From positions 1-34,365 of the forward strand of contig VFKD01000177.1 in the NCBI GenBank assembly GCA_009885735.1: a stretch of 34,365 nucleotides of DNA, given 5' to 3'. The translations under genes and the position numbers were made by a program. Below, piece by piece: positions 24,216 through 34,365 of this stretch (positions within the stretch are counted from its first letter, which is position 1; the number at the start of each line of letters is the position of its first letter). The notes under the pieces were generated by a model. The model had not been told where the DNA came from, did not search any database, and saw only the letters and a list, made by a program, of their open reading frames with translations. Source of the DNA: a bacterium. GTDB lineage: Bacteria; Armatimonadota; Chthonomonadetes; Chthonomonadales; CAJBBX01.

Positions 24216-24244
24216 TTGATTGTGCATTTTTCTGTCGCTATACT
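24216..24244 (+). promoter_or_regulatory. Predicted sigma70 promoter upstream of the prepilin gene
   Basis: TTGATT (24216-24221), 17-nt spacer, TATACT (24239-24244). Lies in a locally AT-rich segment. Confidence 0.5.
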
Positions 24245-24522: not shown

Positions 24523-25332
24523 ATGTTGTCACGCAAGAAGGGTTTCACGCTCATCGAGTTGCTTGTCGTGATCGCTATTATCGCGATATTGGCTGCAATT
24601 CTGTTCCCGGTGTTTGCTCAGGCTCGTGAGAAGGCCCGCGGCATCACCTGTATCAGCAACGAGAAGAACGTTCTCACCGGTATCCTGATGTATGCTCAAG
24701 ACTACGACGAGACCATCATCCCTTGGCTCACCCGGCGTGAGTACACCGGACAGCCTGTCAAAGAGCGAAGCTGGGTCTTCAAGCTGCAGCCGTACATCAA
24801 GAACGGCGACATCATCCCAAACCAGAAGAAGCCCCGCGACATCATGACCTGCCCGTCATTCAACCAGGGCAACTACCTCAAGGCAGCCGATGCAGCTGAC
24901 TGCGATGGTAACGGCACCCCCGGTTCGTCCGGCCTTCAGGACTGGCTGAACAATGTTCGCGAGTTCCAGGCCCAGTTCGGCATCGCGTTCGACATGCCCA
25001 CGCTTGTCGGCAGCGGCACCCAATCTGACCCGTACTTCCAGTTCCCAGGAAGCCGCGGCTCGTATGACGGCCGACCGACTCGAAGCTTGGCAGACATTCT
25101 TCGCCCGGCAGAGACGGCCATGATGTCCGACGGTATCTCCCTCGTGTTCGAGCCTGGCTTTATCGGGATCTCGATGGGCTGCGAAGCAGCTTACATGCAC
25201 CAGGAGGGCGGCAACCTTGGCTTCCTTGATGGTCATGCCAAGAGAATCGCCCGTAACAACGAGCGCTACCTCGCACAGCGATCTGGTGATGGCGCGTGGT
25301 ACAAGAAGTATCATACGTTCTCAATCGAGTAG
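24523..25332 (+). CDS. Type IV-like prepilin / DUF1559-type H-X-DG protein
   Basis: [69 protein letters not shown]-terminus has [22 protein letters not shown] at 24509-24513. Confidence 0.95.
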
Positions 25333-25345
25333 GAGATTGACCTTG

Positions 25346-25558
25346 ATGTTTAAGCAAGCGGTTGGTAGGGTACTAGCAGCTAGTCTCGCGATGGGAGTAG
25401 TACTCCCCCTTATCGCCGGGTGCAGCAGCAAGGAAGAGTCGCCGAAGGTGAGCGGTGGGACCTACTACACGGGTCCCATGAAGAAGAAGAGCGAAGCCTC
25501 CGGCGCAGACGCAGCCTCACAGCCTGGGAAGGGCGCCGACACAAAAGAAGGCAACTAA
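25346..25558 (+). CDS. Small lipoprotein with GG-YYTGPM motif
   Basis: MFKQAVGRVLAASLAMGVVLPLIAGCSSKEESPKVSGGTYYTGPMKKKSEAS..., with lipobox LIAG-C. Starts 13 nt after the prepilin stop. Confidence 0.8.
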   Translation: MFKQAVGRVLAASLAMGVVLPLIAGCSSKEESPKVSGGTYYTGPMKKKSEASGADAASQPGKGADTKEGN

Positions 25559-25575
25559 CCAGGTGCATGTTCTAT

Positions 25576-25616
25576 ACTTCCGGGAGCGGCAGCCGCCGCT
25601 CCCGGAAGTTTTGCTT
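25576..25616 (+). terminator. Rho-independent terminator after the prepilin-lipoprotein unit
   Basis: Perfect 15-bp stem ACTTCCGGGAGCGGC / GCCGCTCCCGGAAGT with a 4-nt loop AGCC, then TTTGCTTT. Confidence 0.93.
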
Positions 25617-25672
25617 TGGAGTACTCATACATTGCGCGCCCAGTAGTGTAGTATGGGCGCAGGAATACTAAC

Positions 25673-25972
25673 ATGGATTCTAGGTCATCACTGAAGCGCC
25701 TAACAGGCGTTATGGTTTTTCTGATTGCTGTTGCAGGCTATGTGTGGTGGAATGCGTCTCAGCCGCCTCCCAAACCCAGGCCAGAAGGCGGATCTGTTTA
25801 CTACACGGGACCCATGCGAAACAAAGGCAATCCAAATCTGTATGGAACGGACGACGGTAAAGCTGCTCCCGCTCCGCCTGGCGACCTGCCGGCAGCGAAA
25901 CGCGACACCGGCATCACCGGTGTGCGCGAGGTCATGACGACCGAGGCAAGCACTCCCAATACCGGAAAGTAG
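25673..25972 (+). CDS. Small membrane-anchored/secreted protein with GG-YYTGPM motif
   Basis: N-terminal TM LTGVMVFLIAVAGYVWW, then PEGGSVYYTGPMRNKGNP. Terminator follows at 25979. Confidence 0.75.
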   Translation: MDSRSSLKRLTGVMVFLIAVAGYVWWNASQPPPKPRPEGGSVYYTGPMRNKGNPNLYGTDDGKAAPAPPGDLPAAKRDTGITGVREVMTTEASTPNTGK

Positions 25973-25978
25973 GTCTCT

Positions 25979-26013
25979 GCCCGCCGCAAGACCTGCGGCG
26001 GGCGGTTACTTTG
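25979..26013 (+). terminator. Rho-independent terminator
   Basis: Perfect 10-bp stem GCCCGCCGCA (25979-25988) / TGCGGCGGGC (25994-26003) with loop AGACC, followed by GGTTACTTTG. Confidence 0.75.
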
Positions 26014-26061: not shown

Positions 26062-27417
26062 ATGCCACGAGCGAATCGAACTGTTCAGGATACGTCGCAC
26101 GAGGGACAAACCAGCGTTGGTGTGGTGAGCAAGCGACGGCGTGTCGCCCTTGCGCTAGCATTGGCCGTGGTTGGTGGGGCGCTCTGGATTAGGTTCGGGG
26201 GCGCACTCTCGTCCCCAGAGCAGCTCCTCAAGCTGTCCAATGAAGTTCGGCTCGTGGCTGCACCGGACGTTCCAGCATCCGATGCCCCCGACGTTCGCGA
26301 AAAGCTCGCGAAGCTCTCCGTGGAGGCCCTCCCTGTTGCGCCAGAGGAGCTTGTGGCGGCAGCGCGCAGGCGTCTCGATCTAGGGGATCTCCTCACTGCC
26401 CGAGCGCTCATATTGAAGGTCTCTCTCGGTGGCGACGTCCAGGTGTATGGCGCGGCACAAGAGACGCTGGCCCTCACCTGCAAGAATCTGGGACTTCTTG
26501 ATGAAGCCCGTACGGCGTGCGAGCGACTCATCAAGCTAGACCCTCGGGGCGCCGCCAGCCGGATATCATTGGCCGATACTTTGGACCTGATCGGGCAGAA
26601 AGACGACGCGGCAGCCGCGTTGGCTGATGCCCTCGATAACCTTCGCCCACGCGACATTCACGGGATTCTCGCGCTTTCTCGCGCCTACAATAGGCGCTAT
26701 AACAACCCAAAGGCACTGGAACTTGCGTTGAAGTCGCTCGATCTTGGTCCCACGGAGCCAGAAGTGGCCGTTTACGTCGCCGCCCTTGAGATCAAGCAGG
26801 GTAGGATTCTTGACGCGGAGAATCGGCTCAGCGCGCTGATACGCGGTGGAGCCAAATCCGCCCGTACACACCGACTCATGGCGGAACTGCTGGCCGCCAA
26901 ACCAAACGCTGATTCTCTCGCTGGCAGGCGTGAACACCACCTACTTACCGCGCTCCAACACGACCCTGCCGAAGTACGTGCCGCCGAGGAGTTGGTCAAG
27001 CTCTACAATGCTGCCAGCCGCTGGAAGGAGTGCGCGTACGTAGCGGCGCTGGCCCTCGTACACGACCCGCGCAATGGCTCGCTGCGCATGCTCTACTCGT
27101 CGGCTCTCGGCAAGCTCGGAAATCAGTCCGAGGCCCAACAACAGCGAGACATCGCCCATACGGCACTGGCGCTTGACCGTGAGATTAGTCAGCTCGTTAC
27201 GCTGAAGAACAACCGACCGTATGATCCGGCTCTGCGTGTTCGCCTCTCGGCGGCTTATCGGAAACAGGGTCGGTACACTGCTGCGCTGTCCGAAGCCCAG
27301 GCGGCTTACGTAGTTGACAGGCACAAAGGGGTAGGTCGCCTCGCGCTCGAAGTAGTTTCGCGTGAGCTGGGAATTGAGATGCCAATCGTCAAAATGCCGG
27401 CAAAGACCCACCCATGA
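26062..27417 (+). CDS. TPR-repeat protein
   Basis: N-terminal TM (VALALALAVVGGALWI), then repeated helical TPR-like segments: TCKNLGLLDEARTACERLIKLDPRGAASRISLADTLDLIGQKDDAAAAL, LRVRLSAAYRKQGRYTAALSEAQAAYVVD. Confidence 0.8.
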   Translation: MPRANRTVQDTSHEGQTSVGVVSKRRRVALALALAVVGGALWIRFGGALSSPEQLLKLSNEVRLVAAPDVPASDAPDVREKLAKLSVEALPVAPEELVAAARRRLDLGDLLTARALILKVSLGGDVQVYGAAQETLALTCKNLGLLDEARTACERLIKLDPRGAASRISLADTLDLIGQKDDAAAALADALDNLRPRDIHGILALSRAYNRRYNNPKALELALKSLDLGPTEPEVAVYVAALEIKQGRILDAENRLSALIRGGAKSARTHRLMAELLAAKPNADSLAGRREHHLLTALQHDPAEVRAAEELVKLYNAASRWKECAYVAALALVHDPRNGSLRMLYSSALGKLGNQSEAQQQRDIAHTALALDREISQLVTLKNNRPYDPALRVRLSAAYRKQGRYTAALSEAQAAYVVDRHKGVGRLALEVVSRELGIEMPIVKMPAKTHP

Positions 27418-29111
27418 AATTACGATTCCTCACCGTGCTCTGCGTGGTTCTCTTCGTGCCAGGGTGCAAGAGAGGAAACTCAGGTCAGCCACCCACCATT
27501 CGGCAGCCCGCTCCCGAGGTGCGTTTTCGCGACGTAGCCGCCGAGGTTGGCCTAACTGCATCTCGGCACAATGGAGCGTTTGGAGAGAGGTGGATGCCGG
27601 AGTCGATTGGCGGAGGCGGCGCCTTCATCGACTATAACGCGGATGGATTTCTGGACGTACTGGTGGTAAACGGAGACTGGTGGCCGGGGCACCCATACAA
27701 AGGCACCCGTCCAACCTTGTTGCTCTTTCGCAACGAAGGCGGCAAGCGCTTCACCGATGTAACGAAAGCCACCGGTCTCGCGATCTCGCTTCAGGGAATG
27801 GGAGCGGCGGTTGGAGACTATGATGGAGACGGCTTCGACGATCTGTTCATCAGCGGGGTGGGCGAGTGCAGGCTGTTTCACAACGTACGAGGAGAGAAGT
27901 TCAAAGATGTCACATCGGTTAGTGGGCTGAACGACCCTGGGTGGTCGTCAAGCGCCGCCTGGCTCGACTATAACCGAGATGGCCGGCTAGACCTGTTTGT
28001 GTGTCACTATCTGCGTTGGACTCCCGCGCTGAATGTTCGATGCGGCACCACGTTTCCCACCTACTGCAGGCCGCAGGAGTATGAACCTGAGACATGCCGG
28101 CTCTACAAGGGCAGCGGAGACGGCCGTTTTCAGGATGTCACCAAGGCCTCGGGCATTCAGACGGAGGATTCGAAGGCGCTTGGCGTCGTGGTTCGCGACT
28201 TCAACCAGGATGGCTTTCCGGACATCATGGTTGCAAACGACATGACGCCGAACAGGCTTTTTATGGGTACTCGTTCCGGCAGGTTCGAGGAGCAAGGAAT
28301 GCAGCTTGGAATCGGGCTTACGGAAACTGGACAAGTGCGAGGTTCGATGGGAATGGATGCCGCCCAGTGCTGGCCCGATGGCGGCCTGGGAGTCGCCATT
28401 GGAAACTTCTTTGGTGAAGGAGTGGACCTCTACCGTGCAGGGACCTCCGGTCTGTTCACGGAACTAGCGACGCAGGCGGGCCTAAGGAAGCCATCACAGC
28501 CCTATGTAACATTCGGGCTGCTGTTCCTGGATGCGGATAATGATGGCGATCAAGACCTCTATATCGCGAACGGGAACATCTATGACAACGTAAAGCTCAT
28601 GGACCCGAAACAGACCCACGCGCAGCCGGGCCAGCTCTTTGCAAACGATGGCAACGGCCAGTTCACCGACGCGGGTCCAGCGGGTGACATCGGTCTGCCC
28701 TCGGTTGGTCGAGGCGCCTGTCGAGGGGATTTCGATAATGATGGCAGGGTGGACCTGCTGCTCGTGCCGAACAGCGGACCGGTGCGTCTCCTCCGCAACG
28801 AGACTCTAACTCCGAACCATTGGCTCTCGATCGAACTCCTGGGCGTACTGCGCAATACTAATGGTCTTGGCGCACAAGTACAGCTTGAAGCCGGCACTCT
28901 GAAACTCACCGCAGAGGCAGCGAGTGGCTCCAGCTACTTGTCAGAGAGCGATCAGCGTCTCCACTTCGGCTTGGGAGGCGCGACTCGAGTGGATACGATA
29001 CGGGTTACCTGGCCGGACGGCTTAGTCTCGGTCATTAGGGACCAACCCGTGGATCGTGTCATTCCAGTAAACCATCCAACGGTCCATTACAAGACATTGG
29101 GACGTACATGA
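27414..29111 (+). CDS. CRTAC1 family protein (FG-GAP/VCBS repeats plus ASPIC/UnbV)
   Basis: Lipobox-like FVPGC. FIDYNADGFLDVLVVNG, GDYDGDGFDDLFISGVG, DFNQDGFPDIMVAND and DADNDGDQDLYIANG repeats. C-terminal GLGAQVQLEAG...SYLSESDQRLHFGLG...IRVTWPDG. ATGA overlap with the TPR gene. Confidence 0.92.
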   Translation: MKLRFLTVLCVVLFVPGCKRGNSGQPPTIRQPAPEVRFRDVAAEVGLTASRHNGAFGERWMPESIGGGGAFIDYNADGFLDVLVVNGDWWPGHPYKGTRPTLLLFRNEGGKRFTDVTKATGLAISLQGMGAAVGDYDGDGFDDLFISGVGECRLFHNVRGEKFKDVTSVSGLNDPGWSSSAAWLDYNRDGRLDLFVCHYLRWTPALNVRCGTTFPTYCRPQEYEPETCRLYKGSGDGRFQDVTKASGIQTEDSKALGVVVRDFNQDGFPDIMVANDMTPNRLFMGTRSGRFEEQGMQLGIGLTETGQVRGSMGMDAAQCWPDGGLGVAIGNFFGEGVDLYRAGTSGLFTELATQAGLRKPSQPYVTFGLLFLDADNDGDQDLYIANGNIYDNVKLMDPKQTHAQPGQLFANDGNGQFTDAGPAGDIGLPSVGRGACRGDFDNDGRVDLLLVPNSGPVRLLRNETLTPNHWLSIELLGVLRNTNGLGAQVQLEAGTLKLTAEAASGSSYLSESDQRLHFGLGGATRVDTIRVTWPDGLVSVIRDQPVDRVIPVNHPTVHYKTLGRT

Positions 29112-33160: not shown

Positions 33161-34365
33161 GTGGCGGTAGTACAGAATCGCACCACCAGACTGGGTGAGC
33201 AGCTAATCCAGGATGGCGTGATAAACGAACTTCAGCTTCGTCAGGCCCTCGAGCGCCAGCGTCAGACAGGCGCCTTCTTGGGTGAGACCCTTGTTAGCCT
33301 GGGAATGGTTGATTCTCCTGGACTTGGCCGCTACCTTCAAGGCGCCACAGGGTTTCCGTATGTCGACCTTGGCGACATTCCACACAATCCCGGGATAGCG
33401 TCGAGCATTCCAGAGCAAATGGCACGCCGTAAGATGGTGCTGCCCTTCGCTGAGCGCGCCGGCGAGGTTCATGTTGCGATGGCGGATCCTCTGGATCTTG
33501 CCACTGTCGATGAGCTTCGGGCCCGCCTGAATCGTCGGATTGTGCCCTTCTTGGCCCTTCGGGCCGAGCTACAAGAGGCAATCAACCGCACGTTTGACGT
33601 GCGCCAGAAGGCGCTCTCGGTCTTGGACGAGCTGCAGGGCGCCGCTCTCATTGAGGCCGAGCTGTCGGTCGATGAACTCGTTGGGCTTGCCGAGGACGCC
33701 CCGATTGTGCGCCTTGTGAATGGACTTATCCAGGGCGCGGTGACCGCGGGAGCAAGCGACATCCATATCGAACCACAAGAGCACGCCGTGCGGGTGCGTT
33801 ATCGCGTGGACGGAATACTCTTCGATCAGATGACGGTTCCACGGCATCACCAGGCGGCTGTTGTGTCCCGAATCAAGATTATGTCACACTTGAATATTGC
33901 GGAGCGGCGCAGGCCGCAAGACGGGCGCGTGACGTATCGCGACAACGTCGGCGCCGAGTTCGACCTGCGCGTGAGCGTGATGCCGCTGATCTACGGCGAG
34001 AAGGTGGTCATGCGCATACTCGAGAAGTCCGGTTCGTTCGCCGGCCTCGAGAAGCTTGGGTTCTTCCCCGAGCAGCGTAGCGCGTTCGAGGACTTTATCC
34101 GGCGTCCTCACGGCTTGGTGCTCGTAACCGGCCCCACAGGCTCCGGCAAGTCCACTACGCTCTATGGCGCGCTGAATCGGCTCAACGAAAACACTGTTAA
34201 TATCAACACAATCGAAGATCCCGTTGAGTATCACCTAAAGGGCGTTAATCAGGTTCAGGTCAATCCAAAAATTGGAATAACGTTCGCAGCGGGCCTGCGG
34301 ACACTGGTGCGCCAAGACCCGGACGTCATCATGGTTGGCGAGATTCGGGATGGCGAGACGGCCGA
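33161..34365 (+). CDS. Type II secretion/type IV pilus assembly ATPase GspE/PilB, truncated at window edge; GTG start
   Basis: My translation: MAVVQNRTTRLGEQLIQDGVINELQLRQALERQRQTGAFLGETLVSLGMVD... (MshEN-like), DAPIVRLVNGLIQGAVTAGASDIHIEP, RPQDGRVTYR, LVTGPTGSGKSTTLYGALNRLN, NTIEDPVEYHLKGVNQVQVNPKIGITFAAGLRTLVRQDPDVIMVGEIRDGETA. Open to the right edge, so missing from the ORF track. Confidence 0.96.
   Translation, partial: MAVVQNRTTRLGEQLIQDGVINELQLRQALERQRQTGAFLGETLVSLGMVDSPGLGRYLQGATGFPYVDLGDIPHNPGIASSIPEQMARRKMVLPFAERAGEVHVAMADPLDLATVDELRARLNRRIVPFLALRAELQEAINRTFDVRQKALSVLDELQGAALIEAELSVDELVGLAEDAPIVRLVNGLIQGAVTAGASDIHIEPQEHAVRVRYRVDGILFDQMTVPRHHQAAVVSRIKIMSHLNIAERRRPQDGRVTYRDNVGAEFDLRVSVMPLIYGEKVVMRILEKSGSFAGLEKLGFFPEQRSAFEDFIRRPHGLVLVTGPTGSGKSTTLYGALNRLNENTVNINTIEDPVEYHLKGVNQVQVNPKIGITFAAGLRTLVRQDPDVIMVGEIRDGETA

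Follow-up and report, generated by a model that had tools for sequence, protein, structure and literature searches.

A conserved Armatimonadota cassette of one prepilin lineage with a tiny lipoprotein and a tiny membrane protein that share a YYxGPMxxK motif

Genes and features of the locus

The window, i.e., the whole stretch of 34,365 nucleotides that was analysed, contains a prepilin gene followed on the same strand by two very small genes whose products carry the same short motif. The features are as follows.

24216..24244, + strand: possible sigma-70 type promoter of the cassette, TTGATT-17-TATACT (consensus scan only; weak, 2 found against 1.3 expected in shuffles)
24523..25332, + strand: cassette-lineage prepilin, 269 aa, with N-terminal methylation motif, DUF1559-like, H-X9-DG
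25346..25558, + strand: tiny lipoprotein, 70 aa, with lipobox LIAGC at residues 22-26 and YYTGPMKKK at residues 40-48
25463..25489, + strand: motif copy 1, YYTGPMKKK, in the 70-aa lipoprotein
25576..25609, + strand: 15-bp GC-rich hairpin between the two small genes, candidate attenuator (gap energy z = -5.4)
25673..25972, + strand: tiny single-helix membrane protein, 99 aa, with YYTGPMRNK at residues 43-51 and a second, weaker element, NLYGTDDGK
25799..25825, + strand: motif copy 2, YYTGPMRNK, in the 99-aa membrane protein
25977..26005, + strand: 12-bp GC-rich hairpin 3' of the membrane protein gene, probable cassette end

The two small open reading frames described by the sequence-only reading are both present, with the lipobox LIAGC in the 70-residue product and one hydrophobic helix in the 99-residue product. 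The coupling of the lipoprotein gene to the prepilin gene is also as described, the prepilin stop at 25332 lying 13 nucleotides 5' of the lipoprotein ATG. A strong terminator was claimed behind each small gene; the hairpins of 15 bp and 12 bp exist, but their T tails are poor. The DNA of the two motif copies is indeed identical at 17 of 18 positions (TACTACACGGGTCCCATG at 25463-25480 and TACTACACGGGACCCATG at 25799-25816). This identity is not special, as many synonymous codons code for the motif elsewhere. A riboswitch search of the 275-nt leader gave no Rfam match up to E 1.

Downstream of the cassette, a TPR protein gene overlaps the gene of an FG-GAP/UnbV-ASPIC protein by 4 bases (window 26062-29111). 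These genes were not seen beside other cassettes. They are therefore ruled out as part of the system, and the 12-bp hairpin is taken as its probable end. A PilB/GspE-type assembly ATPase (window 33161-34363) lies on the cassette strand about 7 kb 3' of the cassette and runs off the contig end. It is one of several PilB/GspE ATPases in the same genome, and none was recognised from N-terminal sequences near other cassettes.

The two small proteins

The alignments cover lipoproteins from 20 loci, 21 membrane-protein homologues, and 25 prepilin homologues. In the lipoproteins, the lipobox cysteine behind the hydrophobic helix is invariant (20/20), and lipidation is predicted. The residue after this cysteine is never aspartate in the aligned lipoproteins, and is serine in the lipoprotein of the window. 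By the +2 rule of E. coli, which may not be the rule of Armatimonadota, the lipoprotein would be sorted to the outer membrane. The positive-inside rule predicts that the membrane protein has its N-terminus inside and its C-terminus outside, with a periplasmic tail. Its AF2 model comprises a confident helix at residues 3-28 and a mostly unstructured tail, with the motif at middling confidence. A tail of this kind would suit a linear motif.

Neither small protein matches a family above cut-off in Pfam or NCBIfam, and no PDB family covers either of them. The lipo-invert C-terminal anchoring domain (NF058595) reaches 20.4 bits at best against a cut-off of 37, through a partial match to the hydrophobic stretch. 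An LPXTG/sortase substrate is ruled out, since only one of the 21 membrane proteins matches, at E 0.001 and below the cut-off, and the anchor is N-terminal in all of them.

Conservation of the motif

Y1, Y2, and G4 of Y-Y-x-G-P-M-x-x-K do not vary among the 41 aligned members, of which 20 are lipoproteins and 21 are membrane proteins. P5, M6, and K9 occur in 18, 15, and 18 of the lipoproteins, and in 17, 19, and 19 of the membrane proteins, respectively. Position 3 is occupied by E, T, D, or Q in the former family and by T, S, or E in the latter. In each family, motif columns carry 3.5 bits of information on average and the remaining columns 2.0, and in both small proteins the motif lies 10-20 residues outside the membrane anchor. 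Across 69 distinct copies the motif codons vary synonymously, with all four glycine and all four proline codons in use. Together with the high conservation of the peptide, this indicates that selection acts on the peptide and not on the DNA.

The leaders and tails of the two small proteins had been called unrelated. This is correct at the level of individual sequences, but the profiles of the two families align over the motif and the N-terminus. Removal of the motif from the profiles leaves a weak hydrophobic N-terminal match alone, which could reflect composition only. As judged from these sequences, the two families may share an ancestor.

In many of the membrane proteins, a weaker conserved element, Y-[AT]-T-[ED]-[DEA]-G, follows about 7-15 residues after the motif, and then a proline-rich stretch. 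The EYTGQP of the prepilin itself is ruled out as a relative of the motif, its orthologues having EYPGQP, EYAGQP, or unrelated sequence.

Recurrence across genomes

The degenerate DNA pattern TAYTAYACNGGNCCNATG has no match in 100 shuffles of the window and two in the whole 4.99-Mb genome, both in the window. This strict pattern is found in 18 of 101 related genomes, where, with two exceptions (G045 and G052), the matches fall in small open reading frames that encode either a lipobox or one hydrophobic helix, or in their remnants. A relaxed pattern, TAYTAYNNNGGNCCNATGNNNNNNAAR, in which the third residue is loosened and the lysine is required, occurs at 66 places, which are spread over 40 of the 291 Armatimonadota genomes; the reversed control occurs at 2. 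The places that were read are again anchored small proteins or remnants, except those in G253 and G257, which were rejected as a large unrelated protein.

When 84,980 species were scanned for YYTGPM together with a basic or polar residue and lysine, anchored small motif proteins appeared in Armatimonadota only, in records labelled Chthonomonadia, HRbin16, and SZAS-2, and in some mislabelled bins that belong to this phylum. Five strict-motif matches outside the phylum (L049, L053, L057, L058, and L064) are unanchored fragments or unrelated proteins, at chance level.

Recurrence of the motif in many small exported proteins beside prepilins, with Armatimonadota searched first, was the test set beforehand, and nearly all of the places found lie directly 3' of one prepilin lineage. 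Absence of the motif elsewhere is excluded by this recurrence. A recent local duplication is excluded as well, because the pair is present in other families of the phylum and the codons differ.

Two proteins with different anchors carry the same short sequence, in which both Tyr and the Lys are among the most conserved residues, and the tail is unstructured; such a sequence could also be a recognition signal. It would then be read by an enzyme or sorting factor of the envelope whose gene lies elsewhere (for modification, cross-linking, proteolysis, or lipoprotein sorting), and the pilin would only be co-expressed. PEP-CTERM and LPXTG tags, however, usually occur on many unrelated proteins, whereas the strict motif is found in the cassette only, beside one prepilin lineage, and the LPXTG and other tag models all fall below cut-off. 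A recognition tag is thus considered unlikely.

The prepilin lineage and its companions

The prepilin of the window matches PF07963 (N_methyl) above cut-off (E 6.4e-10), and has the GFTLIE cleavage site and a hydrophobic helix. Its match to PF07596 (DUF1559) is at E 1e-4, with 22.9 bits against a cut-off of 23.3. TIGR04294 gives 14.6 bits against a cut-off of 19, and the H-X9-DG block sequence is present. Among the 25 cassette prepilins, all match N_methyl and 24 match PF07596 at E <= 0.001. In the AF2 model (mean pLDDT 87), a long helix at the N-terminus is joined to a mixed beta domain, and a PDB fold search with this model returned nothing at E <= 0.001. In a tree that also included 25 other Armatimonadota prepilins (23 from the genome of the window), the cassette prepilins form one clade (support 100/99), and the lineage has an RNxERYL C-terminal block. 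It occurs in 24 of 101 genomes, usually in one or two copies. The genome of the window contains 40 N_methyl genes, yet only a single cassette-lineage prepilin and two motif proteins are encoded in it, and these three lie together at this locus.

Nearly every motif locus that was read has this same prepilin lineage directly upstream. The link is reciprocal, as a search with the prepilin leads back to the motif protein. With residues 60-269 as query, which avoids the common N-terminus, a motif protein was found immediately 3' of the prepilin in 27 of the 30 loci fetched by the prepilin C-terminal region alone, and both companions in most. The three loci without a motif protein near the prepilin are L119, L125, and L126, the last at a contig end. 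The flanking genes differ between genomes, which identifies the cassette of prepilin, tiny lipoprotein, and tiny membrane protein as the conserved unit in Armatimonadota. The sequence-only reading did not recognise this fixed arrangement, the regular pairing of a lipoprotein with an inner-membrane protein, the recurrent hairpin between their genes, or the variable third residue of the motif (T, E, D, or S). Linkage to one prepilin lineage strengthens the earlier suggestion of a pilus-associated motif, and linkage alone would also fit co-expression without contact.

A lipoprotein together with an inner-membrane partner is the rule in the cassettes. In most of them the prepilin gene is followed after 4-22 nt by the lipoprotein gene, then by the hairpin, and then by the membrane protein gene. 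The lipoprotein is the only companion 3' of the prepilin in G036, G081, and cassette a of family f6, and the membrane protein the only one in cassette c of f6. The order of the small genes is reversed in three lineages (G095 and its genus, G002, and SZAS-2), in which they overlap or lie 20 nt apart with no hairpin between them. G029 and G063 carry the membrane protein gene unlinked, on a different contig from the prepilin-lipoprotein pair. One f6 cassette, L100 (G071:C1:424677-425282), has an in-frame TAG in the prepilin gene, which may be broken or contain a sequencing error, and an intact lipoprotein.

In four genomes of one f6 genus (G047, G060, G071, and G222), the cassette-c prepilin is deleted or fragmentary. 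The same deletions remove the start and anchor of the companion, and their right-hand breakpoints differ. No intact companion persists where its prepilin is lost, which is weak evidence for dependence, as the same deletions explain both losses.

The hairpin between the small genes

A stable GC-rich hairpin is present in 18 of 20 distinct gaps between the lipoprotein and membrane protein genes, with z scores of -2.2 to -6.2 against dinucleotide shuffles. Its sequence varies by locus and its structure recurs. A hairpin next to an accessory gene is a known arrangement in the pilA cassettes of Pseudomonas and other bacteria, where attenuation of the accessory gene has been proposed (PMC11841053). 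By analogy, the hairpin may lower expression of the membrane protein relative to the pilin and the lipoprotein.

The small proteins could also be structural parts and not assembly helpers, incorporated into the filament or placed on it as a cap, or anchoring its base between the inner and outer membranes. Their opposite predicted membranes, shared motif, and fixed linkage to one pilin are in keeping with this, and the distance of 4-22 nt between the prepilin and lipoprotein genes in most loci is compatible with similar dosage. However, a pilin-like signal is absent from both small proteins, the position of the membrane protein gene behind a hairpin suggests low dosage, and several cassettes have one companion only. 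A structural role is accordingly regarded as rather improbable.

Other prepilins with small neighbours

DUF1559/H-X9-DG prepilins are numerous in Armatimonadota, and also in Planctomycetota. No published function for them was found, nor any study of the prepilins described here, and YYTGPM is not mentioned in the literature searched. In the genome of the window, a tiny anchored protein is encoded within 250 nt downstream of 6 of 14 H-X9-DG-type prepilins, against 1 of 13 other prepilins, and 2/27 and 1/27 in two controls; these numbers are small. Five H-X9-DG prepilins of this genome (L070, L075, L076, L078, and L081) are followed by different tiny anchored proteins that lack YYxGPM, e.g., MRQSAAIPTVIIAIIAVVVFLGFLAKK... 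and MRRPRLLLPALVVAAGVVLSGCSNDPGS... The prepilins of L076 and L081 are sisters, both with small lipoproteins. At L026 (6032-10749), three prepilins stand in a row, each with a tiny lipoprotein and two also with a tiny membrane protein, and the YYxG motif occurs in the first set only. Having companions may be a general habit of prepilins, of which the YYxGPM cassette would be the best-conserved case.

Neighbours of this kind without the motif could instead suggest that the small proteins are envelope-stress or signalling peptides that answer pilin overproduction, or that their function is unrelated to the filament and they share the prepilin promoter. The tight linkage to one lineage, the joint loss with the prepilin, and the strict conservation of the motif all argue against such peptides, and this explanation is judged very improbable.

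Proposed function

The preferred reading is a pilin-accessory cassette, in which a DUF1559/H-X9-DG-type prepilin is served by two dedicated membrane-tethered microproteins whose motif docks to the pilin or to its assembly machine; this is given an even chance. The motif would be displayed at the inner membrane by the membrane protein, whereas the lipoprotein would display it at the outer membrane or the outer leaflet. The motif would be a short linear docking element for the globular domain of the cognate pilin, or for its assembly platform. Docking may stabilise the pilin before assembly, and may guide or tether the filament in the periplasm. The motif would dock to one partner, most simply the cognate pilin, and such binding is about as probable as its absence.

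The residues that flank the motif were compared between partners within loci. Their matching is significant only through cassette b, in which PKS[QE]R follows the motif in both partners (families f6 and f35). Without cassette b, p = 0.09-0.44, depending on the stretch compared, and the other cassettes show no such co-variation of the motif flanks between partners.

More tentatively, the display of YYxGPMxxK from both membranes toward the same site on one pilin lineage may form a two-sided periplasmic guide, an assembly or tethering device not described before. It is possibly one example of a wider rule by which DUF1559-type prepilins have private anchored microproteins. The cassette suggests that a so far undescribed set of helpers assists in the construction of a filament on the cell surface, and it singles out one prepilin lineage among about 40 prepilin-like genes of its genome. 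The microprotein pair and its sharply defined motif offer a testable handle that predicts binding partners. The nine-residue signature can also be used by annotation pipelines for two families that are missing from Pfam and NCBIfam.

Comparison with known systems

The closest parallels are with TfpX, TfpY, and TfpZ of Pseudomonas aeruginosa and its relatives, whose accessory gene likewise lies directly 3' of a particular pilin gene and has a terminator-like hairpin that is thought to attenuate it (PMC11841053). In the cassette, the hairpin is placed behind the lipoprotein gene and not behind the pilin gene. Both systems have an inner-membrane protein with a periplasmic part. TfpY-like proteins, in contrast, cross the membrane with three helices and have a globular domain in the periplasm, whereas the small proteins described here have 55-110 residues, one anchor, and an unstructured tail, and form a pair of lipoprotein and membrane protein with a motif in common. 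With one helix (residues 3-28) and an unstructured tail, membership in the TfpX/Y/Z group is ruled out; the two systems are analogous, not homologous.

In Geobacter, the short pilin chaperone Spc adjoins the truncated PilA, and is a small partner encoded directly downstream that stabilises the pilin. Spc is taken to supply the C-terminal half that its pilin lacks, whereas the prepilin of the cassette is full length, and each of its partners is a microprotein with a membrane anchor and a linear motif.

LptM (YifL) is a lipoprotein of about 60 residues in which a short conserved element closely follows the lipidated cysteine, and is a dedicated chaperone of the LPS translocon. Its NCBIfam model (NF047847) matches one of the 20 lipoproteins weakly (E 0.007), with 16.5 bits at best against a cut-off of 27.7. 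Identity with LptM is ruled out, as the match covers the signal peptide and lipobox only, a CGLKGPLY-type element is absent, and the neighbour is a prepilin.

The first gene of the cassette probably belongs to the DUF1559/H-X9-DG prepilins (PF07596, TIGR04294). The cassette lineage differs from the others in that it forms a distinct clade with the RNxERYL block and has companions of its own.
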